Made by a program: the position numbers and the translations under genes
The notes under the pieces: model-generated
Told to the model about the DNA's origin: nothing
Database searches by the model: none
Seen by the model: the letters and a program-made list of their open reading frames with translations, nothing else
Part shown: piece after piece, positions 15,829 to 45,387 of the stretch
Layout of the letters: the number at the start of each line of letters is the position of its first letter
Numbering within the stretch: the stretch's first letter is position 1
DNA from: Haliotis asinina
Taxonomy: Eukaryota > Mollusca > Gastropoda > Lepetellida > Haliotidae
DNA: 64,000 nt
Direction: 5' to 3'
Assembly (NCBI RefSeq): GCF_037392515.1
Contig: NC_090280.1
Span: forward strand, 76,303,004 to 76,367,003

Positions 15829-16184
15829 TTAACATTGTTCATCACATGTCCTTTGAATTATGCGAACAGTGGCACAGTCATCAACGATGTTATTGCAGCC
15901 GTCATATAAGGAGACGCTGACTTCGGTTGGGCTTGGCGGGTTGTCACAGGCAGCGCCTGGAATGGTGAACCTCTCGCTTATGAATGCCCTGTAGCCCTTG
16001 CATAATCCGACCAGACCAGGAGGGGATGGTCGGACGCCCGTGGCATCTGCGAACGACGGTGTGTTGATGGCGACGCGTTTGACGTTGGTGCAGCTGCTTC
16101 CAATAACAACGAAGACGTATACGGCGTTCGGGTGTTGTCTGCCGCAGTAGGGGTCGCAGCGAGCTGTTAGTTGACCCCGGATTT
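15829..16184 (-). CDS. Gene A exon 3: cysteine-rich domain and stop
   Basis: The acceptor is ctctcaatttcag above 16184 and the TAA stop is at 15829-15831. The exon supplies two bases of codon 60, residues 61-177 and the stop. Visible motifs are RCDPYCG (68-74), a hydrophobic strand AVYVFVVIGSSC (80-91), RVAINT (96-101), a Cys at 121, F(T)IPGAAC (132-139), and VSVSLYDGC (148-156) followed by Cys 163, 173 and 177. The alternating beta-like strands and even spacing of Cys suggest a small disulfide-bonded extracellular fold. Gene B carries the same landmarks: RCAPYCG, RVAINT, F.IPG..C, (L)(Y/F)D.C. I do not recognise the family. Function unknown; an effector, shell-matrix or mucus protein is possible but unsupported. 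Confidence 0.78.
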
Positions 16185-16256
16185 CTGAAATTGAGAGAAT
16201 AAGTTTAGTATTTAGTGTTCAGACATAACCCACAATGCCGACCGACCTCGACTAGG

Positions 16257-16470
16257 ACTGTGAGTGAGGTTAGCTTTACGCCCCACTTGGCTATATTCCA
16301 ACTATATGGCGGCGGTCTGTAAATAATCGTGTCTGAACCAGACAATCCAGTGATCTGCAGCATGAGCATTAAAGAAACGATAACATGTGTCAACCAAGTC
16401 AGCCACTCGATGCCGTTTGTAGCTTCTAACAATAAGCATGCCATCTTCACGGGTAGCTAGGTTTGTGAAA
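16257..16470 (-). repeat. SINE-B copy
   Basis: Plus reading: GTGAGTGAGGTTAGCTTTAC, ATTCCAACTATATGGCGGCG, ATCGTGTCTGAACCAGACAA, GATAACATGTGTCAACCAAG. It lies in gene A intron 2. Confidence 0.85.
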
Positions 16471-16512
16471 CAGATAGGCGCACGATACTGACAAACCCAA
16501 AGACAAAAGACA

Positions 16513-16677
16513 AAGAGTGGGTGAGTTGGGTTTCATGCCGATTTTAGCAGTAATTACAGAATTATCACCAGGAGATACCAGAAATGGGCGCCATACCTTG
16601 TACTCATGTGGGGAATCGAACGTGGGTCTTTGGCGCGACGAGCGAACGCTTTAACCACAAGGCTACCCCACTGCTCC
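16513..16677 (-). repeat. SINE-A copy, full length
   Basis: Plus reading: GAGTGGGTGAGTTGGGTTTC, AGATACCAGAAATGGGCGCC, GTGGGGAATCGAACGTGGGT (B box), GCTTTAACCACAAGGCTACC (A box). It lies in gene A intron 2. Confidence 0.88.
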
Positions 16678-17354
16678 TCAAATAAAGAGAAGCTGTAACG
16701 TCACTTTCATGGGAGTACGATTATAAAGGCCTCAAATGACTACTAATTTGAGTTTGTAATATTCGTAAGTTCGCCATAAGCGTATTACACATACGAGTGT
16801 CCAGGCTGGTCTCCCTTGGCGGATTTTCTCAGATGTCGGAACTTCCGGTCACGTGGAACGAGAGACCACATTGTGCAGAATCTCAAGTTTACTACAACGG
16901 TGGGGTTGATGCGTTACATTCCGATATCATTTTTTTAAAGATTTCCTAGTGGCGAGAAACAATATTTAGTGAAGCCTGTCTGTCTCCCCTCGCCGCCACC
17001 TTTGGTGATATTTATGCCGTCTCGGGGGACTGCCGTTGCGTACGCTCGGCGACCGTTCTCGGTCGCTCATGTAGCTGATACGCGAGTTTTGTTTCCATTT
17101 TGATCGATCAGTTTTCCATTACAGATGCGTCTGTTTGGGTTTCTATTTGCAAACCCTGTGGAAGTTTTGGAAGTTTGTTTTCCAATTTTGGTGATTATTG
17201 TTCTGGTTTGGTGTGTATGAGTTCAGATTTTCGGATTTTGAGGGGTTGGCATGATATGCCAGTTTGTGAAAATTGCACTCTCATCCTGGAAAGTTAGGGG
17301 TAGTGACCTGGACTCTGACAGTTATTCTTAAATCGACACTCGGCACTTCCAGTA

Positions 17355-17475
17355 CTGTGGGGCAGTGGGGTAGCCTACTGGTTAAAGCGTTCGCTCGTCA
17401 CACTGAAACCCGGGTTCGATTCCTCACATGGGCGCAGTGGGTGCGTAAAGTTAAATTCACTTACTCACTGCAATG
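17355..17475 (+). repeat. SINE-A copy with short body
   Basis: GCAGTGGGGTAGCCTACTGG (A box), TTCGCTCGTCACACTGAAAC, CCGGGTTCGATTCCTCACAT (B box), then a shortened body straight into TAAATTCACTTACTCACTG. Repeat C follows directly. Confidence 0.88.
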
Positions 17476-17635
17476 CATTATCAACTTTCGCTACTGCGAT
17501 GCCTTTTTCAGAGCAGTATCAATTACCAAAAGTGCCTTAAACAGAAGACTCACGTTCACTGTTGACACCCTTTCCTTACCATAAGGAGTTCCGATTTGGA
17601 GATACCCGGTAGTCCAGTGAACAAGGAGTTACAGT
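17476..17635 (+). repeat. Repeat C, copy 3
   Basis: Contains GAAGACTCACGTTCACTGTT, GACACCC and GGAGTTCCGATTTGGAGATA. In reverse complement it matches 11800-11950. It sits immediately after the SINE-A tail, as in the other two copies. Confidence 0.78.
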
Positions 17636-17639
17636 ATCT

Positions 17640-19130
17640 ATCATCTGATTTAAGAGTATCAGAATTTGAAAGTATACATGTCCAACTCACTATCTCACGG
17701 TCAAAGTGAGAACGGACATGCTGACAGGCAAAGCAAATGAGAGCAGTTCACCCTAGGCAGGATAACCCGGATACCGGGGACTCGTGGGTAATGATTTGGA
17801 CCCGGGTACCCTCAAGCAGACCCGTTGCGATCAGGTGACTAATAGATTAAACAATATTATACGTTTTTCTTTTATGATTAAAAGGTTGTATTGTCTTTGA
17901 AGATTTTGATATAATTATGCAGTCATCTGATTGGAATAAATTTATAATGCATGGTTAAGATATGGAAAAACTTGGAATTATAGCATCTAAGCTGAAGAAT
18001 ATATTGACGTTTCTTACAAATTTGATGTCCAGAATTAACATAACATTTATCCGGGTAGGGTGGGGGTAATATTTGCAATATTTATTTTGCCAACTTGCTA
18101 TCAGGACCTGCTGCTGCCTGCGGGCTTTAAAATCTACAGGCCTTGAATGAAAGCTACATCCCCAATTTGTTAAGTCAAACAAAAATAGACTAAACCGTAC
18201 ACTGTACCTACAAAATCAATTTGCGAAGGCTATCGCGCAGAGAGGTTCTTATTTTGTTTATAAGAACAAAAATATGGAAAACAAACTGAAAAAAAAAGAT
18301 AATTTACCGAAGGCCACATGGGCCTGGAAATATTTGAAACTCTCAACCTGATACAATAAAAAACCGGCGCTGGGAAAACGGACCGGTGATTATTTTGAAA
18401 GCTGAATAGGGGGTGGTGTAACCGGGTAAAAAAATTGGACCCGTCCCAGCCGTACCAGGCACTGTGATGGTGCTGCTGTCGATGTCAGACCGAGCATGCG
18501 GCAGCTGGTGGGCCTAGCTCTTGGGACCTGAGAAGACAAAGGTGTGAAGACTGTTGCCTTCATCAAATTAATAATTCCAGACGAAGGTTTCAGGCGAGTG
18601 CATTTTGAAGATTCCGTCCATGTCAAAATACAGCCCATGTTGATTCCAAGTACAAAAGGACCTTGGGTACGCGCTTGAATTATCACCTTGGCTTCAGAGA
18701 CTACTGATTAGTGTGTGTCGTGCAATGCTTTCAGATGTTCGTAAGTGCCACAGACTAGGTTGCAAACATAACGTTGGTTAAAATCGCCGCAGTGGTTGTT
18801 AAGCTAAAACACGTAATCTTGGGTTCTTGCGGATGTTAAAGGTACCTAAGTTTACGCCCTTTCTGAATGACGCTGACAAAAGGCCTAGTTTTTTAACAGT
18901 GCATTTGGTATCCTGTGGCCTCTCGCTTCTTGTTCACCTACTTAGTAAACGGGTCTCCCTCTTGGCTAGCAATATCGTAGCTTGACAGCGAGTCAAAGTG
19001 CCAACCCTCAAAGATATGAAACAGTTGACAACCACACTCTCGAACAGCATTCTGCAGTTCCCTGTTGACGAACGTTCCGACCAATGACGGTCTCCATCAC
19101 TGATGGGACAGGGACCCTACAGCTATCCTT
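17640..19130. other. Gene A intron 2, no recognised feature
   Basis: No exon signal pair, RNA gene or repeat family could be placed with confidence. A G/C-rich patch at about 17755-17830 (ACCCGGATACCGGGGACTCG) stands out but is unassigned. Confidence 0.35.
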
Positions 19131-19137
19131 CAACACA

Positions 19138-19265
19138 GGTGGGTGGGTGATTATGGTTTTACGGCACTTTTAGCAAGGTTCCACCAATATCTCACGGCAA
19201 GGGACACTCGTGTGGAGAATCGACAATCAAACGTTTCAACCGCAAGGCCACCTCACCAGCATAAT
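19138..19265 (-). repeat. SINE-A copy, degenerate
   Basis: Plus reading: GTGGGTGGGTGATTATGGTT, TTACGGCACTTTTAGCAAGG, GTGTGGAGAATCGA, CGTTTCAACCGCAAGGCCAC. Confidence 0.7.
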
Positions 19266-19872
19266 TTGGACACAGAGGAAATATCATGGTGTGGTCATGA
19301 ATGGCAATTTAAATGTGGTAAAGAAGAACAAGGTGATAGACATGGGTGGGCGACAAAGTCATGGAATACAAACTTGTCGTTCATTATCTTCATAAGTACC
19401 ACTGGTGGTTTGGGCACACGTTGAGCGAGCGAGTGATGAATCACTTCATTTGGTGACAGGCCCTTTGCAGGGTACAACATATCGGAGTGTTACAGAGACA
19501 CAGGAAGTGCCTGTAAAATCAGAAACACAGGTGGCAGGTTGGCAGTAGAGGGATTGACTGAAAATAGGGAACTTCAGCTTAAGTAAATAATGGTGATAGG
19601 AACTTTTTTTGCAATTTAAATGCAAGAAATTTTTACTTTAATTGTCATTTCATCAGCTGTTTATGGAAATTCCAAGAAATATCTGGGAATAGATGTTTTC
19701 TGAGATCATCATAGAAAGAAGATTCTGGGTTGAAGTGGAGCTCAGTTTTTATCACAGGAATAACACAAGGGGGGCATAATCGCTGATCTCTAATTATTTC
19801 TAATTTGTGACTATATTCAGTCAGGACACAGTGGCTGGAGTACCTAAGAGAGCACACAAAATTTCTGTACAC

Positions 19873-19955
19873 TTGAGTGAGTGAGTTGGGTTATTAGCGA
19901 TACTCCAGCAATATCACGGCGGGGGACACAAGAAATCGCCTTCACACCCCTCTCA
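19873..19955 (-). repeat. SINE-A tail fragment
   Basis: Plus reading: TTGAGTGAGTGAGTTGGGTT, GATACTCCAGCAATATCACG, GCGGGGGACACAAGAAATCG. The tRNA head is missing. Confidence 0.75.
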
Positions 19956-20275
19956 TGGGGGCTGAATTCATTATCAGTGGTGATTTTAACGCAAGGACAT
20001 GGAATGAAACTGACATTTCCGACGATGAAACAAAATATTTTCCAGTCGATCAACACTACAAATCTGATAACTTCTGCTGCAGTAGAGAATCATGTGATAA
20101 CGTGATATGTGGTAGATGCTAGATATGTATAAATTGTTGGCTGTTCATATTGTAAGTGGACCATTTGATGGTTATAATGTGGTGATTTTACGTTTGTTTC
20201 ACACACTGGGTGTGGTAAAGTTGACTGCTTTATTATTTCTTATTTGTTCGCTTATGCTATTGATTTGTCTGTTCA

Positions 20276-20360
20276 AAGGACCCACGAAGGTCCGGGCTAG
20301 ATTGAACGTTCATCAGCCCATGCTTGCCATTAAAGGCGACCGTGCTTGTAGTAAGGGGTG
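20276..20360 (+). repeat. SINE-B head fragment
   Basis: CACGAAGGTCCGGGCTAGAT, then CATCAGCCCATGCTTGCCAT and AAGGCGACCGTGCTTG match the SINE-B head in plus orientation. An opposite-orientation fragment follows within 20 bp. Confidence 0.75.
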
Positions 20361-20377
20361 ACTAGAATGTCGTAAGA

Positions 20378-20462
20378 CAGAGTTTAGTTTTACGCCGCAC
20401 TCAGCAATATTCCAGTCATATGGCGGCGGTCCAGTGATCAACAGCATGAGCATCGATCTTAG
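20378..20462 (-). repeat. SINE-B tail fragment
   Basis: Plus reading: AGAGTTTAGTTTTACGCCGC, ACTCAGCAATATTCCAGTCA, TATGGCGGCGGTCCAGTGAT, CAACAGCATGAGCATCGATC. There is an internal deletion between GGCGGT and CCAGTG. Confidence 0.82.
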
Positions 20463-20550
20463 TTTTACTTGTCTAACACAAATTGGAGCTGTGAAACAAT
20501 CAGTAATACCCTTGTCTGTTCTGATACATGCTTTGACTGATGCATATACC

Positions 20551-20712
20551 CGTGAAGGTCCCGGGTAGAATAGGTCTTCAGCAACCCATGCTTGCCATAA
20601 ATGGCGACTGTACTTGTCGTAATAGGCGACTAACGGGATCGGGTGGTCAGACTCACTGACTTGGTTGACACATGTCATCGGTTTCCAATTGCGAAGATCG
20701 ATGGTCATAGTT
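20551..20712 (+). repeat. SINE-B head and middle
   Basis: ACCCGTGAAGGTCCCGGGTA, GCAACCCATGCTTGCCATAA, GGCGACTAACGGGATCGGGT, GACTTGGTTGACACATGTCA, ATTGCGAAGATCGATGGTCA. Plus orientation, tail absent. Confidence 0.85.
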
Positions 20713-20714
20713 TC

Positions 20715-21330
20715 TACAGATATTTCAGTATTGAGATGAATTTTCAATACTGCATGTACACGTTGACGCGTTAATTAACTGCCAAAACAGGAATTCAAAA
20801 TTATATCGATTCATCAATTACTAAAGAATTTTATAACAACAAAAACATTTGATAACTTTTATATAGTTAATTCACACTAGATTAATATTAAAAAATTAAA
20901 AACTATATGTTTTTGATGAGTATCAACATTATTTCCAATTAAAACAGCATAGTTACCCAAATTGAATTTTATAAGGGGAGATAACTCTTGCCCAAGTTTA
21001 CCTCAAGATAAATGTTTGCGTTACCGAAACGTCATAAAGCATGATTAGAAGCAAGATAAAGTGAAATAACTGCGTAGCATATGTACGCGCTCCTAATGGC
21101 ACATCCCGTCGCATACGGTATGCGCACAAGCTGTAATATCCAACCTCTTTAAGAGACCATCCAAAATCAACTTCAGTGCGTCTTACAGTTGGTTGAACCC
21201 GTATAGATCCCATTATGACCTCCTTCGTGCCCCCAACACAACAATAGACCATCCGCCAACTGCCCTTTTCAGGGGCACCGCAAATCTTTTCAAACAAAAT
21301 TACTTGTACAAACACATTCCCCTTTGCCAA
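20715..21330. other. Gene A intron 2, AT-rich, unassigned
   Basis: A 153-codon minus-strand open frame overlaps 20998-21459. I see no family signature, and its 5' third lies in a dispersed repeat, so I do not call it a gene. Confidence 0.3.
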
Positions 21331-21332
21331 AC

Positions 21333-21565
21333 CGGAAGTACACCCCCTGGAACCACTCTCCTGCAGAGGTGCATTGATGGGGTGACTGTCCGCCTGCATT
21401 TGCAGTGATTGCGTGCTTGGTGGCGAATGTAAGATCGGTGTTAAATATCTAGACACCATTTGCGAAACAATATCGTTATTAACATTTCACGAATGCACAG
21501 GTCCTAATGGTGAAATATAGAAAGTTTCAAGTTTGTAGGCTAAACATCGGCAGATCATATCTTTT
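21333..21565 (+). repeat. Dispersed repeat D, copy 1
   Basis: CACCCCCTGGAACCACTCTC, GTCCGCCTGCATTTGCAGTG, AAGATCGGTGTTAAATATCT, CATTTCACGAATGCACAGGT, GAAAGTTTCAAGTTTGTAGG. It matches 25690-25950 in inverted orientation. Family unknown. Confidence 0.8.
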
Positions 21566-21569
21566 CAAG

Positions 21570-22500
21570 TAGACAAATACTGGTTTTATGTCAAATATAT
21601 TTCCATTTTTCCTATGAATGGTGTCACCAGTAGTACCCTCTGTGAAAAGAGGAAGTCATTCGGATGAAAACTGAAGAAGTTATTGTATAAAATGTAAACC
21701 TGATATTCAGTGAAGTGATCGCGGGAGAACAGTGAACACATAATTCAGTGACCGTAAATTTGGAATATGCAGAGATCTGAAATTTCTGTACACTTTTTCT
21801 CAAAATGTATAGGAAATATGAAATAAGTAGGTTTAGTATGTAACAAAGTATATTTTCAGTCAGTTTCAGACGGAGAAACATGAATGAGGGGGTTATGTGT
21901 GGATATTGCCCTTCTATGGATGACTTTTCTGCAGTTGTCAATCACTGTGTGCAGAAACATGGAGATTTGAAAATAGGGACATTGACCATAACACTTAACA
22001 AAAACAAAGGCAATAATTCACATTTACCAAGCGTACACGTATGACAATGTATATCAAGCCAACCTGAGGGTACTAAAAAGACATTACCCATCTGCAAAAA
22101 CTAAACATCTCTAGGCATAGTACCTTAAGCCACAGCTAGTTCCCTAAGCAAGAAAGCGAACCAGAGACACATATCCAGGATATATCGCCACAGTGTGAAA
22201 ATCAGTGTTGTCATTTGGCGGAAATATGCGTCGTACTCCGACTTTCCATTAACATACTCACAACTACCCACATAGATTTGTTGTTGACCAACTGATCAGT
22301 GGTCACCACACAGACAACCATGTAGACACGAAAGGATTCCTCAGTGTGGAGTGCATACAATCAATCCGTGTATCATGCGAGACGTGGAAAGAGGACAATT
22401 CGTAGTTTTTGTACTATTTTATATTCTCTGAATAATTTTCATAAGACATATTCAGGGATATTTGTAGTTCCAAACATATTGATGGAATTACACTCCATTA
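21570..22500. other. Gene A intron 2, nothing recognised
   Basis: AT-rich sequence without exon, RNA or repeat signatures that I can name. Confidence 0.35.
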
Positions 22501-22502
22501 CC

Positions 22503-22667
22503 GGTGTTGTGAATTTAGTTTTACGCCGCCCTTAGCGATATTCCAGCAATTTCCTGCCGGGGACACCAGAAATGAACTTCACACCTTCTACCCATATAGG
22601 AAATTGAACCCGATTGCTCGGCATGAAGAGCGAACGCTTTAACTTCTAGCATACCCAACCGCCACAG
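22503..22667 (-). repeat. SINE-A copy
   Basis: Plus reading: GTGAATTTAGTTTTACGCCG, CCCTTAGCGATATTCCAGCA, GGGGACACCAGAAATGAACT, GAAATTGAACCCGATTGCTC (B box), AACGCTTTAACTTCTAGCAT (A box). Confidence 0.85.
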
Positions 22668-22777
22668 TAATGGTGTTGAAGGAAGGCTAAATTCACCGCT
22701 ACGTCTGCTAGCGTCATTGATGAAGGGCCAAGCTTTTAGTAACAACATTTTTTTAAAGTTGTAAAATCTTCGTTTTT

Positions 22778-23762
22778 CTCCCCGGCATGTAATGCTGGGG
22801 GATATAGTCGACGCCTCGTCTGTCTGTCCGTCCGTCCGTAATCATTTCGTTCCCGGAGAGTAACTCAAAAACCATTGAAAATTTTTAGACCAAAACTGAT
22901 AGATAAAGTAATCTCACCCTATGGTTGTGCCTTTTGCTATTTACAGATTTTTTGCAGTTTTAATTTTTGTTATTTTTCCATGGAACGTTTTGTAATTAGT
23001 CCAATAGTGGGGCGGGTTTGTTTCCGGATCATAACTCAAAAACCGTTGAATATTTTTTTCTGCAAAACTTGGTAGATATATCAGTCAGAACCTAAAGTGG
23101 TGCATTTTGCTATTTACAGGTTTTTGTGATTTCTCATTTTCTCGGTTTCCCATGGAAACGTTTGGACTTAGTCTCAAAGTTAGAGGTGTATTTCGTTTCA
23201 GGAGCACAATTCGAAAAGGAAAACCTGGTAGATATATGTGGCAGACCCCAAGGTGGTGCCTTTTGCTATTTGCAGGTTTTTGTGATTTATCAATTTCTAG
23301 GTTTCCAAGGAAACAATTCGGACTGCGTCTCAAAATGGAGGAAAGGACCTCGTTTTCCGGAGCACAACTCGAAAACTATTTAATATCTTCCATCAACACT
23401 TGGCAGATATTTGAGGCAGACCACAAAGTGGTGCCTTTTGCTATTAACAAAGTTTTGGCATTTTTATTTTTTCCGGTTTCCATGGAAACAATTCGGACTT
23501 AGTCTCAACATGAAGGGATGGACTTCATTTCCAGAGTACAACTCGAAAACCATTCGATAGCTTTCAACGGATCTTGGCAGATATATGAGACAGATCTTGA
23601 AGTGGTGCCTTTTGCTGTTTACAGATATATGGTATTTATTCTTTTCACGATTTCCATGGAAATAATTCAGATCTAGTCTACAAACAGATCAAGTGTCAGA
23701 TGATTTATCCTTTCAAATATATGGGGGGCCGGGTGGATATGTCATCTTGTGATGACTCTTGT
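22778..23762 (+). mobile_element. Tandem-core mobile element (Pearl/Helitron-like, tentative)
   Basis: The left part holds a hairpin (CCCCGGCATGTAATGCTGGG) and a GTCTGTCCGTCCGTCCGTAA run. The core has about five imperfect units of 160-176 bp, each carrying GTGGTGCCTTTTGCTATTTA, GGTTTCCATGGAAACAATTC and GGACTTAGTCTCAAA (unit landmarks near 22932, 23104, 23261, 23437, 23608). The right end has a hairpin (GTCATCTTGTGATGAC) followed by TCTTGTT. Mollusc Pearl elements, which are non-autonomous and Helitron-related, have a tandem core of similar unit size; that match is from memory and inferred. Confidence 0.6.
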
Positions 23763-23764
23763 TG

Positions 23765-24165: not shown

Positions 24166-24169
24166 TGAG

Positions 24170-24640: not shown

Positions 24641-24649
24641 GGTTGATGT

Positions 24650-25685: not shown

Positions 25686-25689
25686 AGGA

Positions 25690-25950: not shown

Positions 25951-26204
25951 ACAGCTGTCTTGGAAAGCAGGATGCCTACAAGCGGCGTGTATAGACCTCC
26001 GTATGGAATCCTAGAATGGGTTTTTTCATATATCTTAGATGCCGACGAATATTTTTACCTTAATATTGTCGCTCTGTCGCATTTTCGCCCCTTGGATGAA
26101 TATATTATTGATAGCTTGAAAACGCGACAATGTCCCTTCCAAGATTCCATACCGCCGTGTCTGTCGCTGGTGGTACTTGTCTTAACGTCTTCAGACTAAG
26201 ACTC

Positions 26205-26418: not shown

Positions 26419-26517
26419 TGGTCATCTGGCAGTCTGAAGTCTGGGTACCCGTTAGCATATCAACAATCGCGACCACCGTTCTCGGGCAAATCGTCGATTT
26501 CCAGCGCATAGAGAAAT
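26419..26517 (-). CDS. Gene A exon 2
   Basis: The exon lies between acceptor ttgtcttttcag and donor ACCA|gtgagt. Its 99 nt complete codon 27 (Asp), encode residues 28-59 and give the first base of codon 60. Phase 1 at both ends matches exons 1 and 3, so the frame is open throughout. It contains ICPRT (36-40) and the pair DC (55-56). Gene B exon 2 also has CPRT at exactly residue 37 and a closing DDC, with the same phases, which is the main argument that this small exon is real. Confidence 0.72.
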
Positions 26518-26949: not shown

Positions 26950-27615
26950 TATAATAATAATAATAATCTACTTCTACAGCGCCGAGTTCCATCTAGGCTG
27001 CTCACAGGCGCTTGCGCAGTTCAGTCTATTTCAAACAGATGTGTCTTTAGATGTTTTCTAAAAGTTTGTAGACTTGGGGCTGATTTTAGCGACAAAGGAA
27101 CTTCAAGGTTATTCCATAGCATGGGAGCTGCATTCAAAGCAGCGGTCCCCGTATTTGGTCCTAGATGGTCTGGTGACAAGTAGATCTTTATCTTGTGATC
27201 TAAGAGTTCTTGTTGGTCTGTGGCTGTTCAGAAGAGATGACAGGTAAGCTGGAGCGGTGTTAGTCTTCAGGCACATGTAGATGATGGTGAGCACCTTGAA
27301 TTTTATTCGTCTAGCAACAGGTAGCCAATGCAGTTCTCTTAACCTGTGGGTGATGTGGTCTCTTCGAGGACAACGAGTTATTATCCTGGCCGCTGTGTTT
27401 TGTATAAGCTGCAGTCGATGAATCAGGGAAGCTGTTATCCCATACAGAAGTGAACTGGCATAGTCAAGGCGAGATATGACTATTGCTTGAGTGAGAGTTT
27501 TGGCGGTTTCATCTGAAAGATATCGTCTTGGTTTACCAACCTGATGAAGATGGTAATAAGAAGACTGAGGTGAAGCGTATGGAGGGTGAAGGACAAACAT
27601 GGTGGACTCCATCAC
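26950..27615 (-). pseudogene. LINE 3' end (CR1/L2-like reverse transcriptase C-terminus)
   Basis: The minus frame reads AIVISRLDYASSLLYGITAS, RLQLIQNTAARIITRCPRRD, LRELHWLPVARRIKFKVLTI, KTNTAPAYLSSLL, TRPSRTKYGDRCFECSSHAM. This is the standard C-terminal end of CR1/L2-type LINE polymerases (SRLDYCNSLL..GLP, Q.VQN.AARL, HWLPV..RI.FK). The continuation NLEVPLSLKSAPSLQTFRKH then LKTHLFEID and stop lies in another frame (27000-27110). The element ends in an (ATT)n tail at about 26950-26966. It is 5'-truncated at about 27620, as usual for dead-on-arrival LINE copies, and sits in gene A intron 1. Confidence 0.88.
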
Positions 27616-27619
27616 TCGA

Positions 27620-28335
27620 TACCGCTAATTTCCCAATAGGGTCGTGTATTGCAGGTAAAAAAATAACATATTTCATTTGAGAGGTTGTAGAAAGCGGAAT
27701 ATCAAGCGATTACGAAAAGGTTATGTTTTTTCGCCTATCGGGTGTTTTAAAGTGAAATACATGATAGTATTTCTTCTCCGAGAGGCGATGATTTTCGTAG
27801 GCAGTTTTTTTGGGCGTACAAACTAAAAACTTTCACACAACTTTACTCGGTACATACCGATTTTGATAATTTTGGATTTATTCGAAAGGGAATTTATCTG
27901 GCTTTATTTCAGTAAGCGGCTGTTCTCACACAGAATTCACCCATAATCGAGAGTGGAGTGCTTGACAACTTTGTGCACGTTACATCCCTTTCCATCTTCA
28001 TATCAGGTAGCCTATATAGAGGGGGAGATGAAATTCCTCGAAAAGCCTCTGAACGTATGTCTCGGGTCGTTACGTAACCAGTGTAGTCAATATGGTGGCA
28101 GCGTAGTAGTTAAGATTGAGCCCGGTTTATTTTCAACAGCTGATTAAGTTCCTTGAGTGTTGTAACAACTGAAATCCTACACGCAGAAGATAGGCTAACT
28201 ATTTTCTCACTTCAGTTTAAGTCAAATAATTGGTACTAGTGTCCGTATTAGGACTGTAGATTTGTAGTAAAGTTTCAAGTCGGTATGTAATAGCTCACTG
28301 GCTTCTATCCTCGATTCACCGCGAAGATAAACTAA
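27620..28335. other. Gene A intron 1, nothing recognised
   Basis: No exon, RNA or known repeat signature. Confidence 0.35.
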
Positions 28336-28339
28336 ATTG

Positions 28340-31719: not shown

Positions 31720-31798
31720 CCCCATGCACGTGCATTTTCGGCGCTAAGAGGAACATGGATACTATCATAAGGAAAGCCGGCATAATGCGGATGGCCAT
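31720..31798 (-). CDS. Gene A exon 1: start and signal peptide
   Basis: ATG at 31798 opens 26 codons plus one base, then donor GGGG|gtaagt. The peptide MAIRIMPAFLMIVSMFLLAP has a basic n-region and a long hydrophobic core, followed by KMHVHG: a typical secretory signal peptide. Gene B exon 1 has the same arrangement (basic residue, PAF, ILIAP) and the same phase-1 donor. Both starts share the context GCAGAATGG, which supports this ATG. A TATA box lies about 70 bp upstream. Confidence 0.78.
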
Positions 31799-31863: not shown

Positions 31864-31874
31864 CTATTTTATAG
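31864..31874 (-). promoter_or_regulatory. TATA box of gene A
   Basis: The minus strand reads GGGCTATAAAATAGGCT, a near-perfect TATA box. It lies about 66-76 bp upstream of the ATG, leaving room for a start site about 30 bp downstream and a roughly 40-nt 5' UTR. Confidence 0.65.
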
Positions 31875-34815: not shown

Positions 34816-34835
34816 GTCAGTCAGTATCAACCAGT

Positions 34836-35059: not shown

Positions 35060-37830
35060 GTGAAGCATTTAAGACCGATTTCATGAAAATGAAATCTGGC
35101 ATTGTCACCAATCCTCAAAGTGATGTTGATGATATATGTCCGACTGCCTTCTGGAACTCGCTCTCGGGATGTCTTAACATTCATGCGTCTTTGGAGGTAA
35201 GCAAATCCCTACACGAGATGGTTCGAATGTTAACAAAACCAAGGCTCAGCGACGTGTGGCATAACGGCGCCGGAGGTCTGCACGTCTTGAGGTGCACAGA
35301 CAGACGTACAAAGTAGCAAGAAACCATATTAATGTATTTATCAGGAAATCGAAAACGGCATTTGTCAACAAAAGCACTGAACAAAATGTTCAGAATCCTA
35401 AAAAGTCATTTTCAGTTCTGAACCATCACCTTGGAAAATCAAAGGACGCTGTACCGAAAGATGATAAAAGTCGTTTAGCCTCAGTCTAAGTAAACTTATC
35501 CTCAGTACTTTTCGTTACACTCCACCACTGAGTCTAAAAAAACTAATAGGAGGTCGCGTCAGGTAACCTTTGACCAATCAGAACACAACTTACCAAATCG
35601 CGAAAGTGCACATCTGCACTTCCCTTATGAACTTTTTATCTCGAAAAGGTTCGTACCCGAACGATTCCGAATGCTGTTTAGCGCACGATCGCTTCCGGGT
35701 GATGCACACGGCGTACATACTGCCATGACAACGGTGAGTAAACAGTCGCTGAAAATAGTGTTTTTGACAATATTCAAAGATGTTAATTTGCGGAAATATT
35801 AGCTAATGGTAACCATGTGAACAGAAATCACAAAGCGTATATACTACAGGTCAAATAACTGTGTTATATGCTGATTTTTGTTTGTGGAGAGATCTGTGTC
35901 GGTGACCTGAATGTTTTGAAAGTCCCTCCAATCCCTAAATAGTAGCCGTTTTCTGATTAGTTAAATCTGTTTAACCGCATCGCATTTGATTGGACCGTCA
36001 TTGGTCTCCCAAAGGTTACCTGACGCGACCTTCTACTAGGTTTTGTTAGACTCAGTGGTGGAGTGTAACGAAATACACCGAGACTAAGTTTACTTAGACT
36101 GCGTATAGCCTAAAACTTCTCCAGTTTCTTGATTGAGAAGACTGACAAGATTAGGATAAACCTTGGACCCTAAGATCATGAATAGTCTACGCCATATTCT
36201 GGAACCAGTTTTAATAGTTTTCGCCCAGGAGTGAAGAGAATCTGCACAATGTAAGCATAGACTCTAAACTCACAGCCTGTGAAATTGATCAAGATTTTGT
36301 ACACGATCATTGATGTTGTATTACCTACCCTTCTACAACTGGTAAATATGTACTTCATTGGAATCAGAAACTGTACCCAAGTGTTTCAAGCCTGCCGTGA
36401 TCAAACCACTGATAAAAAGGCTTTCACTCGATTCCCAACTGCTTCAAAGCTACAGACCAATGTCGAACCTTCGATTCCTATCCATAATTCTGGAGAAGAT
36501 AGTGAAATGTCAGACTGGGGAGCATCTTATTTAACATGGACTGATGGACCAGTACCGGTCTGCCTACAGATCATGCCATACTCAGCTTTTTTGTGGATAA
36601 CTCGAAGTGGTCTGTGGATGGTGGTAAAAATGGAATGCTTGCTCTATTGGACTTGTCTTCCGCCTTTGATACTGTGGATCATCACCTTCTGACAGATGGG
36701 TTGGGAAAAGATTACGGTAGATCCGCGGGCCTGTCTTCAAGTGGTGAGTTTATTATCTAATATGGCAGAACCCAGTCTGTATGTGCACAGAACACCGTGA
36801 CACCTGTTATTGTATTGAAGTGTGGAGTACTCCAGATTTCTGTCCTTGGGCCACTCATGTTCACCCTTTATACCAGACCACCCGGCTCTCTCATCAGTAA
36901 CCAGCATGTTACCCATTGCCCTGGCGACTCTCTCTGCTCATGGCGACTCTCTCTGCTCATGGATTAACTTCACCAGTGGTCCCCAGTGTCAGACTGAGGT
37001 CTGTGCCAAGATGGAGACGTATTTGAAAGGTGTTAAAACTTAATGCTTGATGTCTAAGAACACGCTAAATAGCACAACAGCTGAACTCATGATCATTGTT
37101 TCTAAGTCCAGATTGCAGAAATATGGTATCGATCATCTCCAGATGGATGACGTAGAACTTCCTGTTTCTCGTAGTTTAAAAAACCTAGGCGTCTTTGTAG
37201 ATGAGAATCTATCTATGGAACAGCATATTAACCACCTGAGGAACATTCTATTCGTCACCCCCTCACCAGAAACACCACACCTACACTGATGGGATCCTTA
37301 GTGATGTCTCGGTGAGACTACTGCAATAGTCTCTTGATTGGTATTACCAGTGACCAACTTCACAGACTACAGAAGGTGCAGAACACCGGCATTATCGCAC
37401 GCTCAAAACTAACACATCCAGCCTGTATTGAAGTCCTTCCACTGGCTGAGTGTCAAAGAAAGAACACAGTTTAAGATTTTAACTCTAAACCACAAAGCCC
37501 TACATGGAACTGCTCTACTCTATTTCCCAGCCCTTGTCTCACCCTACGTCCGACAGAGGAATCTCAGGTCAGTCGATCAATCACATCTTCGTGTGCTTCC
37601 ATATAAACTAAAACCACTCGGACATAGATCATTCAAACATTCAGCTGGTTTCCTTTGGAACTCTCTCCGTATAGACATCAAATCTGCTCAAACTCTCGCA
37701 AGTGTTAAATCTCACCTTTTTCTTCGGTACTGACTTGATTGTGTTTGTGCTTAGAGTATGGCCAAGTGTTGCTGAGTCCGGCGCTTTACAGATAACCTAT
37801 ATTATTATTATTATTATTATTCTGACCTGT
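35060..37830 (+). pseudogene. CR1/L2-like LINE copy, degenerate, split by a TIR element
   Basis: Pieces of one LINE ORF2 appear in order along the plus strand. The pre-RT linker is RNHINVFIRKSKTAFVN..(N)PKKSFSVLNHHLGKSK (35320-35455). After the inserted element at 35482-36101 come NFSSFLIEKTDKIRINL (36115 on), LIKILYTIIDVVLPTLLQLV (36283 on), then NYRPMSNL- and AYRS-type RT motifs in shifting frames (36450-36580). LLALLDLSSAFDTVDHHLL-type sequence follows at 36640-36690, then SRSLKNLGVFVDENLSMEQH (37163 on), HWLSVKERTQFKILTLNHKA (37437 on) and FLWNSLRIDIKSAQTLASVK (37650 on), ending in stop and an (ATT)n tail at about 37800-37821. Many stops and frame changes, 5'-truncated. Confidence 0.87.
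35482..36101. mobile_element. TIR element E, 620 bp, copy 1 (10-bp target duplication)
   Basis: The left end CAGTCTAAGTAAACTTATCC and the complement of the right end (CAGTCTAAGTAAACTTAGTC) begin inverted repeats of about 105 bp. These continue through TTCGTTACACTCCACCACTG, AGTCTAA and GTCGCGTCAGGTAACCTTTG. The flanks are CGTTTAGCCT (35472-35481) and CGTATAGCCT (36102-36111), a 10-bp target duplication with one mismatch, inside a LINE. No transposase ORF. The long TIRs and 9-10-bp duplications point to a Mutator-like (MULE) origin, which is inference. Confidence 0.88.
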
Positions 37831-38282
37831 GGCAGTAGCACCTGTAGTACTGACTGTAGTAATACCGTAACCTGTCGAAGTAGCAGTGGTAGCACAATCT
37901 GTAATACTATAGCCTATGGCATTAGAAACTGTAATACAGTCTGCAGTAATACTAGGACGCTTAAAAGCAGTAACTGTAGTACAGTCTGTAGTATTACTGT
38001 GATGTGTGGTAGTGTCAACGGTAGTACAGTGTGTAGTAATACAATGACCTGTGGAAGTGTCAACGACAGAACAGTCTGTAGGAATACTGTGATGTGTATA
38101 AGTAGCACCTGTAGTACATTCTGTAGTAATACTAAGATCTGTGGCATTAGAAACTGTAGTACAGCCTGTAGTAATACTATGGCATGTGTAGAACAGTCTG
38201 TAGTAATACTATGGCATGCGTAGAACAGTCTGTAGCAATACTATGGCATGTGTAGAACAGTCTGTAGTAATACTATGAGCTG
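37826..38282. repeat. About 51-bp satellite, block 2
   Basis: GTAGTACAGTCTGTAGTAAT and ACTATGGCATGTGTAGAACA units. Continuation of 34646-34815 on the far side of the LINE. Confidence 0.9.
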
Positions 38283-38324
38283 AAGCGTTGCTGTACGATG
38301 TAATGAGCATAATGGCATCCTATC

Positions 38325-39335
38325 TCTGCAGTGAGAGGGTGGTTTGGTCTGATTGAGTGAGTGAGAGGGTGGTTTGGTCTGATAGAGTGAGAGTGGTTTG
38401 GTCTGATTGAGTGAGTTAGAGTGGTTTGGTCTGATTGAGTGAGTGAGAGTGGTTTGGTCTGATAGAGTGAGAGTGGTTTGGTCTGATTGAGTGAGTGAGA
38501 GTGGTTTGGTCTGATAGAGTGAGTGAGAGTGGTTTGGTCTGATAGAGTGAGTGAGAGTGGTTTGGTCTGATTGAGTGAGAGTGGTTTGGTCTGATAGAGT
38601 GAGTGAGAGTGGTTTGGTCTGATAGAGTGAGTGAGAGTGGTTTGGTCTGATTGAGTGAGAGTGGTTTGGTCTGATAGAGTGAGTGAGAGTGTTTTGGTCT
38701 AATTAAATGAGTAAGAGAGTGCTTTGGTCTAATTAAATGAGTGAGAGAGTGGTTTAGTCTGATTGAGTGAGTGAGAGTGGTTTGGTCTTAGTGAGTGAGT
38801 AAGAGTGGTTATGTCTGATTGAGTGAATTAGTGAGTGGTTATGTCTGATTGACACTGAGAGTGGTTATGTCTGATTGAGTGAGTGAGAGTGGTTTGGTCT
38901 TAGTGAGTGAGAGAGTGGTTTGATCTGATTGAGTGAGAGAGTGGATTGGTCTGATAGAGTGAGTTAGTGGTTTGGTCTGATAGAGTGATTCTTTTGGTCC
39001 GATTGATTGAGTGGTTTAGTCTGATTGAGAAAACAGTTTAGTCTGATTGGGTGGTTTGGTCTGGGTGAGAGAGAGAGAGAGAAAGAGAGCGTTGTTTGGT
39101 CTGAGAGAGTTATTGACTGATTGACTGGTTTTGTCTGATTGAGTGAGTGAGAGTAGTTTTGTCTGATGGAGTGAGTTAGTGAGTGGTTTTGTCTGATTGA
39201 GTGAGTTAGTGCGTGGCCTGGTCTGAGTGAGGAAGTGGTTTCGTCCGACTGAGTGAGTTAGAGAGTGGTTTTCTCTGTTTGAGTGAGTCAGTGAGGGAGT
39301 GGTTTGGTCTGATTGAATAAGTGGATGAGTCGGTA
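38325..39335. repeat. GAGTGAGAGTGGTTTGGTCTGATA minisatellite, about 1 kb
   Basis: Units of 24-32 bp: GAGTGAGAGTGGTTTGGTCT, GAT(T/A)GAGT. The array is regular at 38331-38700 and decays to the right with (GAGA)n and TTATGTCTG variants. Confidence 0.93.
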
Positions 39336-39604
39336 GATTAATATATTTGTACTGGAGTCGGCAGATTGCCGTTTGCGATTTTTATTGTAATCAGTTTAGT
39401 AGCAGCTCCCTGGTAGAATATTTCTATTGCTTTTTGCAGCGTTCTACTGCGTCATTACCATCTTACAGACATACCATGGCGGATAAGACAAACCACCGTC
39501 CTAACCATATCATTGATTCCCTAGTTGAACACTGAAAACAGCAGTAGGAATATTCGTTGAATTGTTCGTACTGCAGACTCCACCTCATATCGAAGTGTGC
39601 GTTC

Positions 39605-39815
39605 GAGTCATACTATACTGGACAACAAAAGAAACGCAACTCAGGCTTTTTGTGGAGTTCGTAAATGGGGATTCTTGACAGGCATTTTGAAGTTGGTATT
39701 TAAAACGTCTTTTACTTTAAGTTTTTAAATAGAAGACATAAACATGAGCGCTTACTTTTATGCGATTTCCTTTCTCTAACACTTGCGTTTCTTTTGCTGT
39801 TCTTTATATATTATA
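39605..39815. mobile_element. Tc1/mariner-type MITE
   Basis: The left terminus TATACTGGACAACAAAAGAA, ACGCAAC and the complement of the right terminus (AAAGAACAGCAAAAGAAACG, CAAGTG) form imperfect inverted repeats of about 28 bp. TA dinucleotides flank the element. An ACAA.AAAAGAAACGCA terminus is typical of Tc1-like MITEs. About 200 bp, noncoding. Confidence 0.72.
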
Positions 39816-40404
39816 TATGCAAACAAACAACCAAACACCGTCTTTGTGGTGCACAATTTTATTGCAGTTTTTTAGATGCTCTTGGAGGGCTGACCGAGTT
39901 TTGACAAAACAAGGTATCGACAACACACGGACATATTTTCTGCATCACCAATCAATCCCTTACATCACATTCCACAATAGGGAACCATAACGCAAACACG
40001 GCTCCATTTCACTGAGTGATCTTATATAACGTTACGACAGTAGAAAGTCTGCGGTTAAGACAAAAGTGTAAACCTGAGAAAACCTGTGAGACGAAACCCA
40101 TTGATATTGTACGAATGCAGTATGGGTAAAAACTAATGTTTTAGTTTCCTGTTGGTTTCAATGACAGTGACAACCTGCTTTTTAACTTTTTCAAGAAAAT
40201 TGTATTTTTACTTGAGCTGATGTAATACCAATGTTGACAATTTCATAGATAACGACTTCTTTATTTTGTGTGTGTGCGACTTTGTGATAGAGATTCTGGT
40301 ACCTTTGTCAAGCAGTTGACGAAATATAGAAGTTGCATTCCATGAAATTATACTTCCCAACTTCCCAACTTCCAAAATACCACTCAAAGAAATGCTATAT
40401 TCTC

Positions 40405-40765
40405 AGTAAATCAGGTGCTAAGGGAGGAAACTCAGCAGTGAATGCCGACAGAAGCAGCTCTGCACATCGGACGCTCAGGGAGGCAATTTCTCAAAGCATG
40501 TACTAAGGGCGACAACTCTGCATATAGGACAATAATGGGGGAGGTGGGGTGCGCAACTCTGAGCAGCGGATGCTAATGTGGCAATGCTGCAAACCGGATG
40601 CTGTGACACGACACAGGGTCCTAAGGGAGGCAACTACTTTGCACATCCGTCGCTATGCAGGCAACTCCACAAAGAGGACCAAGAGAGTACTAAATGGAGT
40701 CGTTCCGCACACCGGAACCCTTTGAAGCCAACTCCAGACAGCGCACATCTAAATTTGCTTTCATG
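40405..40765. repeat. Degenerate tandem repeat, about 40 bp
   Basis: Recurrent CTAAGGGAGGCAACTCTGCA and CACATCGGACGCT motifs with heavy drift, about eight units. Confidence 0.7.
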
Positions 40766-41242
40766 AGCCAAACCATATGTCAGCAAATTATCAAAAACCG
40801 AAAATCATGGGATTTTATCATGGAATATTTCTAAGCATCAATCAAACTGTCACGTATAGAGACAAAAAACGGCTTTACAATGTTAAACTACCGAATGTCA
40901 CGTTGTAACATAATCTACATATTGTTGCAAAAGCATACTCCGACAAAGTACGTGACAGATCGATTTAAATAATCTAACACACTCCGTAAAGACTCAGCAT
41001 TTTCCCTTGCCTACATAGTAGGTACACCAATGCTCAATAAATAGCATCTTTTACAGTGATGTAGCAGCCATTGTCAAAATTATTTTAAGCTCGCGAACCA
41101 ATCAGTATGTAGTGTTCTCAAATGTCGTGGTAGAAACTCGTCATATAAGCCACTGTACACGCTAAAACAAAGGTTGGCTATGCTTTCAGATAAAGGGGTG
41201 GGGAAATCTGAGACGAGGCAGTGGTGGTACGTGTTTCTCTTA

Positions 41243-41616
41243 CTACACTTCCATAAATCTTACAACGCGAACGTCTTCTTCACGGCAGCACAGGTTCTGA
41301 CTGCCGCAGCGATCGAACAATTCGACGGTGATGTTGGGCAAGTCCATGGCATTGGGGCCACAGAAATTGCCGGGAATAACAAACAGACCACTTAAGAATG
41401 GTCTGTATGTGCTGCCACACAACATCATCAGCCTTATGTTTCGCACTTGTAAGCGGTTAACATATGTCTCCGCTGAGAACGCTGTGGTGTTGATTGCGAC
41501 GCGCGTTATGTTGCCGCAACTGTCGTCGATGACGACGACGGCGTATATTTGCTGCTGCATGTCACTCCCGCAGTAGGGTGCACATCGAACTGTCCAGGGA
41601 CGGCTCAAGTTCACTT
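41243..41616 (-). CDS. Gene B exon 3: cysteine-rich domain and stop
   Basis: The acceptor is tcttgtttgacag above 41616 and the stop TAG is at 41243-41245. It completes codon 64 (Glu) and encodes residues 65-187. Landmarks shared with gene A are RCAPYCG (74-80), IYAVVVIDDSC (87-97), RVAINT (102-107), LC (129-130), YRPFLSGLFVIPGNFC (134-149), ITVELFDRC (159-167), CC (173-174) and (D)VRVVRF near the end. Four N-glycosylation sequons (N66, N99, N106, N158) occur here and none at the matching places in gene A. Secreted, probably glycosylated and disulfide-rich. The family is not recognised and its function is unknown. Confidence 0.82.
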
Positions 41617-42017
41617 CTGTCAAACAAGATGAAAGTTAATCAATGTAGGGTCAAGGATCATACATTATAACCAAAACAAAGGGCAGTTCATAATACATTT
41701 GTGTATGACCAGGGGAGTTTTACTGAATAATCTTTTGGAATTTTTTTACATATGTCTCATTTATTTGCTATTTATTTATCTATCTATCATTATCAGTTCT
41801 CTTTTGTTTTGGGAGTGGGGTGGGGGGGTGGGGGGGGGGTCACTGATTTTGTACATACGGGGGTTGGGGGGCACTTCCTATGTACAAGGCATTTACATGC
41901 TCCTCCTTCATCAAAGAATGAGTGTCGGCGGGAGGGCAGTGTTTCTGTGATATTTTCGTGATTGCGATTCTGTTGCGATTCAATTCACTCCCTCACTTTA
42001 ACAAATATTATTCTCAC

Positions 42018-42119
42018 CGCAATCATCCGCTGACGTTCCAACTAGTAAGCTCTCCCTGGCCATCTCCCTGGCCATCAGAGCGACCGCTGTCCGTGGACAG
42101 TGCAACGCTCGATTGAAGC
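42018..42119 (-). CDS. Gene B exon 2
   Basis: The exon lies between acceptor cttttctctttcag and donor TGCG|gtgaga. Its 102 nt complete codon 30 (Gly), encode residues 31-63 and give the first base of codon 64. HCPRTAVALM (36-45) aligns with ICPRTVVAIV of gene A at identical positions. A 12-bp direct repeat (CTCCCTGGCCAT on plus) encodes MARE twice in a row (45-52), and this accounts for much of the length difference from gene A. The exon closes with DDC. Confidence 0.75.
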
Positions 42120-42279
42120 CTGAAAGAGAAAAGAATTGTTGTTATAAAATTTGAAATTACTCGAATTTATGAACAAGTGATTCAAATCTGACGCTGTAGT
42201 TTAAAGGCCACGTTTCTAAGACTGTAGTAGAGTGTAGTCTCACTGTCCCTGCACTATATCATTTCCCATTTCACCCAGT

Positions 42280-42385
42280 CCAGGTCGGGTAGCCTAGTGG
42301 TTAAAGCGTTCGGTCGTCACACCGAGATCCGAGTTCATTGTTGGAATATGGTTAAAAGCGGCGTAAAACAAAACTAATTCATCCA
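42280..42385 (+). repeat. SINE-A copy with internal deletion
   Basis: CCAGGTCGGGTAGCCTAGTG, GTTAAAGCGTTCGGTCGTCA, a deleted B box, then TTGGAATATGGTTAAAAGCG and GCGTAAAACAAAACTAATTC. It lies in gene B intron 1. Confidence 0.82.
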
Positions 42386-42429
42386 GTCAACTCATCAGTG
42401 CGAAACCTCCAAATAAAGCTATAGATTTC

Positions 42430-43390
42430 CTCAGGTTATGCGTGGGTGAGGTTTACGCTGCACTCAGCAAAAAAAAATCGAGTCTCTTGGATTAGGTGTT
42501 TGGCTATTTTGTCCACAAAGCTTCGAAGGGTTGGTGTGAAGTATAGACCATGGCATTCCTCACAAGACGGGTAGCGCGGGCAGCGCACGTGTAGGACACG
42601 GGTAGCACGTGCATGGCAATATATCGGCTTCCTGTCGCATCCCATTTGAAATTAGACTTAGCTTCATTATAAACGTAAGTTGACGTAAAAAATAATTATA
42701 ACTTTTATGCTGAAACTATTAAGGATGTATCCACCATGGAGTCCCACTATCACTATAAAGAGAAACAGGTAGGAGGGGTCGTCTCAAAAGCAAAACCAGG
42801 ACGAGTGTAGCAGACAATGGTTGGGATCGGGCTCGGGGATTGAGAAATCAGCTAAAACATGTATATGATAATCCCATAGGAGAAATAAACTGTGGAAGAG
42901 CACGGCATGTGAAAACAATTTTAAAATAATATCCAATGCTGTATGTCTTCGTGTGGTCATGCTACCTGTACATTTTGAGACATTTAATTTTATTCTGTGG
43001 GTATCACGTATCATACTATTTTACATGTCGCAGCATAAACTTTATTGATGTCAATCAATAGATGAGACATAATCAACACACAGGTAAAAGCAAAACATAT
43101 GTCTTTAAGATGGCCCCTTGTGCCAGTGCGCACAAGGTGTGTCGACGGTGGGTCTTTAGTCTGAGCCAGTGTTTTCAGTAACCAGTCTATATTTTCTCAG
43201 CTTTGCCAGATTTTACGAGTAAGCAAGTTTTTCTGGATATCCTCTTACGCATCCCACTGAATTCCCGATTAGACAAAAGTGGGTTATTTCCACATATCCT
43301 ATGTGCAGTTGTGTAAATATTAGGGATGCAGAGTAACAACCTAGAAACAGTTTTTTTACTATCCCCGACAGTTCATTAGTTGCCTCATCC
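42430..43390. other. Gene B intron 1, mostly unassigned
   Basis: It begins with a SINE-B-like tail scrap (GTGAGGTTTACGCTGCACTC). A 69-codon minus frame here has Cys-rich sequence but no splice-site pair or paralogue, so I do not call it an exon. Confidence 0.35.
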
Positions 43391-43392
43391 GG

Positions 43393-43470
43393 CATTCGAG
43401 TATGGACCATACAACCTAGTGATCAAAATCATGAGCATCGATCTACGCAGTAGGGACATGACAATATATG
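43393..43470 (-). repeat. SINE-B fragment
   Basis: Plus reading: GAGTATGGACCATACAACCT, AAATCATGAGCATCGATCTA, CGCAGTAGGGACATGACAAT. Middle section only. Confidence 0.65.
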
Positions 43471-43587
43471 GCAACGGTAACCACCCGAAGAGCCACATTT
43501 GAAAACTACCTATGGCCGTTAAAGCCACATTTCAAGTACAAACCTGGTTGCCACGAAACCCACAACGAATAAGGGAATCATTAGGGG

Positions 43588-43845
43588 TTTTGTTTGTTTG
43601 GTTGGTTGGTTGGTTGGTTGGTTGGTTGGTTGGTGTGTGTGTGTGTGCTGTTTGTTTGTATGGGGTTTTTTGTCTTGTTTTTGTGTGTGTGTGTGTTTTG
43701 TTTTTGTTTTTTGGGGGGGGGTTCTTTTTGTTGTTTTTTTTTCTTTTTGGTGAAGGGGGGAGTTGTTTTTTGTTTTGTTTTGTTTTTGATGTTGTTCTTT
43801 GGGTTTTTTTTCTTTTTACGTTCATTATGTTCTTTAATCTAGCAT
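43588..43845. repeat. (GGTT)n and T/G-rich low-complexity tract
   Basis: GGTTGGTTGGTT (43597-43634), then GTGTGTGT and long T/G runs. Explains several overlapping open frames. Confidence 0.93.
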
Positions 43846-44496
43846 TTTCTGCTTTCAGTGTATATTCTAATATCTTAATTCCTATGAACAGAATCTGTTC
43901 TGAAATAAAATGATGCATGCAAATGGGTCAATGTATGGAAAAGGGCAATTTCAGCTTTAACTCTTAAGAAAATTTATTAAAATTTTGCATTTTTGCATTT
44001 ATTTCTTCAAGTGAACTACTTTGGTTTGTGTGAATTGTATATCGCTTACGCAAAGATGGTTTTACATAATATTTATTGTGACGTTCCAACTTCAAATCAA
44101 ATCCTTACCACAGCGGCGGCAAAAATACAGATTTGGGTAAATGTAGGCATAAAGCTTGCTTAAAACACCACCAGCTGTGAAACGGAAAAAGTCCCAAGGC
44201 TTCACATATGTGACTGTTTCTAGGTATAATCGTGCAATAAATGGTCACTGTAAACGTTTCGGGTGTTTTTATCATAAATTGTAAACAAACTAACTGAAGC
44301 AACAATAGCTCTTATCTCAAACCGTTATCAGAAAAAACACAAAACATTGAATTCCTTTGACATTCACTGAGCTAAAATGCTTCTAAGTAATAACTGGTTG
44401 TATAATCACACACAAAAAATCGTAAAAGGTGTTTGAGTACCCACGTGAGGCAGCTAGTTTGATATCCATTATTTACGATAACATGAATAAACATTG

Positions 44497-44623
44497 CCAG
44501 GCTAGCAATTCTCGAAACGTTCGTAGCCCTACGAAGTTCTTAAGCCCATTCTTAACACATTCTTAACTACGATCAATGTTATATATCCTTAGGGCTACGA
44601 ACCTTTCGAGAATATGGGCCCTG
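44497..44623. mobile_element. Palindromic (foldback) MITE, 127 bp
   Basis: The left arm ATTCTCGAAACGTTCGTAGC, CCTA and the complement of the right arm (ATTCTCGAAAGGTTCGTAGC, CCTAAGG) are inverted. The right edge is GGGCCC. Same logic as 34836-34981. Confidence 0.82.
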
Positions 44624-45009
44624 GAGAGCCACGCGCAGTTTTTACTCCGTAACCCTATCAACCAAGATAGCGAGTCTGACCAGCCAATACTATTATATAG
44701 CCTGTTTGCATGGAAAACGTACCGATGAATTCCACTTTATACAAAAAGGTAAATCAAATAAAGTGAAATTATGATTGAGAATCCCCATAATTTTACCTTG
44801 CCAATTGTATATTTAAATGTAAATAAATTTTCATCTCAGAGTAAAGGTTGTTTAACAAACGATTATATTTATAAATCGTTCTATGTGCTTGTATTACAAG
44901 GGGTTGTGCACATTAAATGAAACACCGAGAACAAGTACGGTTGGCCTTAGTTAACGCTTATCACGTACAGCACGTGCATTTGTTTCACTGTTCAAACTGA
45001 TACGCTCAA

Positions 45010-45108
45010 CACACATGGGTCTTACGGATTGTACAAATAATGGGAATCGAACCATAGTGTCATGCATGACGAGCGAAACCTTTAACCACTAAGCTACCCT
45101 ATCGTCTC
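45010..45108 (-). repeat. SINE-A head half
   Basis: Plus reading: CACATGGGTCTTACGGATTG, ATGGGAATCGAACCATAGTG (B box), GACGAGCGAAACCTTTAACC, ACTAAGCTACCCTATCG (A box). Confidence 0.8.
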
Positions 45109-45116
45109 TCTTGCCT

Positions 45117-45272
45117 ATGGTTTTAGTCCACTGGTAACAATATTCCAGCAATATCCCGCCGGGGAACACCAAAAATGGGCTTCACGCACTGTACAAATTT
45201 TGGGACTCGAACCCGGGTATTCTGCATGGCAAGTTCAAGTTATAACCACTAGGCTACCCCGCCGCCCCTATC
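45117..45272 (-). repeat. SINE-A copy
   Basis: Plus reading: ATGGTTTTAGTCCACTGGTA, CAATATTCCAGCAATATCCC, GGGACTCGAACCCGGGTATT (B box), TATAACCACTAGGCTACCCC (A box). It abuts gene B exon 1 on its intron side. Confidence 0.88.
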
Positions 45273-45299
45273 AACGACAGAACATCTGACCATACTCAC

Positions 45300-45387
45300 C
45301 CGGTAGGAGTTCCTGGAATTGGTGAGTAGGCGCGATCAGGATCATGACCACAGTCATTACAAACGCTGGTGCTTGTAGTCGTACCAT
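45300..45387 (-). CDS. Gene B exon 1: start and signal peptide
   Basis: ATG at 45387 gives 29 codons plus one base, then donor CCGG|gtgagt. The peptide MVRLQAPAFVMTVVMILIAP followed by THQFQELLP has an Arg in the n-region, a hydrophobic core and small residues before a polar stretch, as expected for a secretory signal. The start context GCAGAATGG equals that of gene A. The frame is open further upstream, but that longer reading begins in presumed 5' UTR and would bury the signal peptide, so the inner ATG is preferred. Confidence 0.8.

Follow-up and report, generated by a model that had tools for sequence, protein, structure and literature searches.

Two tandem genes for small cysteine-rich, probably secreted proteins in the abalone Haliotis asinina

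What are the two neighbouring genes, hereafter A and B, that lie on the minus strand of a 64,000-nucleotide stretch of Haliotis asinina contig NC_090280.1 (positions 76,303,004 to 76,367,003; hereafter, the window, within which all coordinates are given), and do they belong to a kind of protein already known? A preliminary description of the window read them as an undescribed tandem pair encoding secreted cysteine-rich proteins, and we do find two cysteine-rich paralogues in tandem, both with a leader peptide and with a common gene structure. The two genes are related over all three of their exons, as judged by comparison of their sequences, and the predicted gene model of A is well supported. 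We consider it probable that the pair represents a family confined to Haliotis whose members are secreted and held by disulfides, a judgement that does not extend to the tissue in which they act.

Gene models and relatedness of A and B

The spliced product of B and a database protein of the same species (P0002, 'uncharacterized protein [Haliotis asinina]') are identical at 187 of 187 residues, so B is on record rather than undescribed, and the predictor of that protein appears to have joined the same exons as our model. Searches of approximately 5.8 billion proteins recovered relatives of B from two more abalones, LOC124266704 of H. rubra (P0003, 183 residues) and a protein of H. cracherodii (P0004, 181 residues). 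A was absent among the matches, and its exon 3 alone yielded one candidate and no match. A search with a profile built from A, B and these two relatives scored 2583 candidates, among which the three B-type Haliotis proteins alone came back, without A, and the same protein-database searches returned no A-type protein for H. rubra. The profile search may overlook distant relatives, since it depends on five-residue words in common and on a suitable length. The label 'undescribed' thus fits A, for which no database protein was recovered, but not B, which is recorded, though with its function unassigned, and has relatives in two other species. In the literature, no paper was found for the peptide strings of the family or for LOC124266704, and the pair is named in no title or abstract start among the matches listed.

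Reading the exons from the window sequence (Table 1) gave GT-AG boundaries for all four introns of the two genes, with every junction in phase 1 (after the first base of a codon), first and second exons of 79 and 99 bases in A and 88 and 102 bases in B, and joined frames that remain intact over 177 (A) and 187 (B) residues. The earlier proposal of two three-exon minus-strand genes with identical architecture and phase-1 junctions is confirmed by these readings. In a segment profile that includes B, exon 2 of this gene ties with a form at 42003-42119, whose donor lies 15 bases further on; we prefer 42018 as the boundary because the P0002 product agrees with it.

The evidence that A is a relative of B is strongest in exon 3, which shares 42% local identity with B (E-value 3.8e-13; 37.1% in the full alignment). 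Aligned globally, A and B score 217.5, whereas 1000 shuffles of the mature part of A gave no more than 52.5, and for exon 1 alone and exon 2 alone the real score was reached by none of 2000 shuffles. A profile of the three B-type proteins, made without A, finds A exon 3 at an E-value of 1.5e-24; one built from the H. rubra and H. cracherodii proteins only finds B exon 3 at 1.1e-55. For exon 2 of A, we listed the 289 open, in-phase AG..GT segments of 60 to 150 bases between A exons 1 and 3. The proposed exon ranks first among them against a profile without A (E-value 1.1e-05; best non-overlapping segment 3.6), and the best of 409 segments in an opposite-strand control reaches 3.7. Good splice sites by a crude score occur in three of the 289 segments, and the one of these three that carries CPR is A exon 2. 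Both genes therefore fall within the family of P0002, P0003 and P0004, B by identity to P0002 and A by alignment over three exons with all nine cysteine columns.

Several results count against relatedness over the full length of the genes. With the same three-protein profile, A exon 1 (E-value 0.052) and exon 2 (1.6) are non-significant among 8820 frames (best reversed control 0.70), and when the profile holds the other two species only, a chance frame (0.072) outscores exon 1 (0.093), while exon 2 is at 0.69. A exon 2 becomes clear only once the search is limited to the in-phase segments between exons 1 and 3, and the exon-2 bounds of the H. rubra and H. cracherodii proteins were assumed via alignment to B, the H. 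cracherodii piece ending before its cysteine. The common start context is also weak evidence. The start codons of A and B both lie within GCAGAATGG, as the preliminary description had noted, but the genome contains this string 7531 times (3594 on the forward strand and 3937 on the reverse; its letters read backwards, 2717 times). A TATA-like box was likewise located in both genes within the distance given before, about 65-75 bp upstream, the one in B being the weaker; such boxes and the start context lend little weight.

Cysteines, family searches and proposed nature of the proteins

Nine cysteine columns are invariant in all four family members. The alignment of A with B contains nine cysteine-cysteine pairs and ten aligned cysteines in each protein, so the nine aligned cysteines proposed earlier stand, except that C163 of A pairs with C174 of B and not with C173. 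A hydrophobic leader, judged by eye, is present at the N-terminus of both proteins, which are probably secreted.

No named family accounts for these proteins. Pfam-A gave no match up to an E-value of 10 for any of the four members, NCBIfam (a library covering bacteria and archaea) gave none for them, the family profile found no convincing match in the PDB, and Rfam returned 0 matches at gathering scores. None of the four members had a Pfam match to ZP egg-coat proteins or to ependymin-related proteins, whose profiles we take Pfam to contain, a result that concerns sequence and not fold. Together with the protein-database profile searches, these results uphold the earlier statement that the pair has no named family; the Pfam, NCBIfam and PDB searches placed its terminal exons in no known one. 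The structures modelled for B and for A exon 3 are beta-rich, with mostly strands in the exon-3 part, and comparison of these weak models with the PDB gave no specific fold relative. Instead of being new, the family could still descend from a known animal family and have diverged extremely, an alternative to which we give serious weight, if somewhat less than even: lineage-restricted-looking families often turn out, as a matter of general knowledge, to be offshoots of older ones, and the beta-sandwich is a common arrangement. Set against this are the failure of all four members to match Pfam-A even at that E-value and of the family profile to match the PDB.

Under the explanation that we favour, a Haliotis-restricted family, A and B would be the two members detected in the genome, which a tandem duplication would have produced before the sampled abalone species separated. 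Removal of the leader peptide from each pre-protein would leave a mature chain of approximately 151-161 residues held by about four putative disulfide bonds, mostly in a predicted beta-rich domain encoded by exon 3, and the mature proteins would act extracellularly as a structural or binding (matrix) component of a secretion. Some observations sit uneasily with this explanation. The structure models, built on alignments of 4 and 5 rows, are poor (mean predicted local distance difference test scores, pLDDT, of 56.9 and 64.8), and a low-confidence helix lies in the exon-2 portion of the B model. The total number of cysteines is 11 in A, 10 in B, 11 in H. rubra and 9 in H. cracherodii, so that three of the four members have an odd number and need not pair all of them internally. 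There are four N-glycosylation motifs in B, four in H. rubra and two in H. cracherodii, as against none in A, so A and B may differ in job. Finally, the protein-database searches did not recover A, which may be little expressed or silent.

The last point bears on a further alternative, in which B does the work and A is a copy that is not expressed or is decaying. The large introns of A (5.2 and 10.2 kb, from the exon coordinates) and a 69-bp tandem array that ends approximately 0.3 kb past its stop would fit such a copy, as does the missing database protein. Yet the frame, splice sites and nine cysteines of A are intact, 118 random codons would be stop-free with a probability of only about 0.0035 (assuming equal base use and ignoring indels), and the codon positions described below show constraint, though partly on B's branch. 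We regard this alternative as improbable.

Divergence and possible roles

A is about equally distant from the B-type proteins (36.4% identity to B, 38.7% to H. rubra and 37.4% to H. cracherodii), and those are closer to one another (64.5% between B and H. rubra over 183 aligned residues, 47.8% between B and H. cracherodii, and 50.0% between H. rubra and H. cracherodii). If rates were similar, the split between A and B came first, and from this we infer that their duplication predates the split of the sampled abalones. Between A and B, nonsynonymous divergence (dN) is 0.64 and synonymous divergence (dS) 2.78, which is saturated, and over 173 aligned codons the first, second and third positions are identical at fractions of 0.543, 0.578 and 0.376. 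A dN below the saturated dS, with third positions the least conserved, indicates purifying selection on average. On average the pair is under constraint, and the comparison shows no positive selection. The preliminary description had suggested selection on a fast-evolving protein; there is a good deal of divergence among the abalones, but the comparison of A with B does not bear that suggestion out.

The possible roles, which are not mutually exclusive, can be ordered with mantle or mucus first, reproduction second and immunity third, although this order is itself conjectural. Our placement of the site of action in an epithelial or mantle/mucus secretion is a tentative guess by analogy: more than 25% of the genes expressed in the H. 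asinina mantle encode secreted proteins and almost 85% of this secretome is novel (PMC1676022), and it is this abundance of novel secreted genes in the same species that puts mantle or mucus first. That A and B are instead reproductive proteins (egg-coat, seminal or spawning-fluid) diverging under sexual selection, like abalone lysin, sp18 and VERL, seems unlikely to us. They have leader peptides, are duplicated and diverge among abalone species, and tandem duplication with shared exon boundaries is a known route for abalone acrosomal genes (PMC9022041). The dN below saturated dS, and the lack of a Pfam match, ZP included, in all four members, argue the other way. Slightly less likely is an immune role, with A and B as secreted recognition or effector molecules of blood cells or mucus. 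Immune proteins that are secreted, rich in disulfides and diverging are common as a matter of general knowledge, and the weak fold-match lists include immunoglobulin-like receptors and carbohydrate-binding modules.

The predicted isoelectric point (pI) of the mature chain, computed with the leader cut assumed after residue 26, is 8.1 for A, 5.8 for B, 5.0 for H. rubra and 7.5 for H. cracherodii, a spread that means an acidic chain is not common to all B-type proteins. One more elaborate scheme would draw these properties together. In it, the disulfide scaffold would belong to a family of its own, born in abalones, whose old tandem copies split roles, B having predicted N-glycans and an acidic chain and A being without sites and more basic, and the odd cysteine found in three of four members would link chains covalently, giving a secreted dimer or network found in abalones alone. 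This scheme we offer as speculation with little chance of being right in full.

Genomic surroundings and closest known systems

Searching the genome with A exon 3, B exon 3 and the whole H. cracherodii protein, we found only two loci, A and B, at an E-value below 0.1, all other matches being at least 0.62; because the genome search scores only the best candidates, a very diverged copy could be missed. A scan of the surrounding 264 kb with profiles including A and B gave significant scores for the exons of A and B only.

Table 1. Exons and upstream motifs of the two genes (positions within the window).
Feature	Position	Strand	Description
Gene A exon 1	31720..31798	-	Start codon and leader peptide, 26 codons and one base; donor GTAAGT
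Gene A exon 2	26419..26517	-	CPRT..DC segment; acceptor TTTTCAG, donor GTGAGT
Gene A exon 3	15829..16184	-	Cysteine-rich domain and stop; A protein 177 residues
Gene B exon 1	45300..45387	-	Start codon and leader peptide; product identical to P0002
Gene B exon 2	42018..42119	-	CPRT..DC segment; product identical to P0002
Gene B exon 3	41243..41616	-	Cysteine-rich domain and stop; B protein 187 residues; identical to P0002
TATA-like box, gene A (TATAAA)	31868..31873	-	Starts 75 bp before ATG; consensus only
Weak TATA-like box, gene B (TATATA)	45448..45453	-	Starts 66 bp before ATG; consensus only

The window also contains repeats and other open frames. The array downstream of A (14549-15515) comprises 14 copies of the 69-bp unit with 94% matches, and the 350-residue open frame that it gives is probably not a gene. 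Approximately 0.7 kb upstream of the B start, two adjacent copies of a 274-bp unit (46111-46653, 98% matches) probably represent a recent duplication, and a 45-bp unit repeated in tandem about 47 times at 54594-56711 (86% matches) leaves one frame open for long stretches. An open frame at 103-522 (minus strand) matches Pfam PF10242 (lipoma HMGIC fusion partner-like) with an E-value of 7.1e-12 and probably belongs to a neighbouring LHFPL gene as one of its exons. Two further frames, 27109-27624 (minus strand, in A intron 1) and 37413-37733 (plus strand), had no Pfam match up to an E-value of 0.1; they resemble what we take to be the ends of reverse-transcriptase proteins of long interspersed nuclear elements (LINEs). 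A 221-residue open frame at 53639-54304 (minus strand) has only a sub-threshold Pfam match, to C1-set (E-value 0.022).

What is new here is one well-supported gene, A, which the protein-database searches did not recover and which is tied to a small, probably secreted, abalone-only family; its exact exon models and cysteine pattern provide a means to ask where such orphan genes act. The pair alone does not alter existing knowledge, being of an ordinary kind, a small lineage-restricted secreted orphan family, and this species has many secreted orphan genes (PMC1676022).

The closest known proteins are those of the abalones themselves, and no function is assigned to any of them. P0002 is B itself. 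LOC124266704 of H. rubra shares 64.5% identity with B and the nine invariant cysteines, and is nearer to B than to A (38.7%). The H. cracherodii protein has the same nine cysteines and is 47.8% identical to B and only 37.4% to A. The acrosomal protein sp18 is set apart by its description, in which one structural disulfide is named (PMC9022041), as against nine conserved cysteines in A and B. The pairs lysin/lysin-dup and sp18/sp18-dup resemble A and B in being abalone tandem duplicates with shared exon boundaries. The novel secreted proteins of the H. asinina mantle (PMC1676022) resemble the predicted-secreted A and B in being secreted, mostly novel and from the same species.
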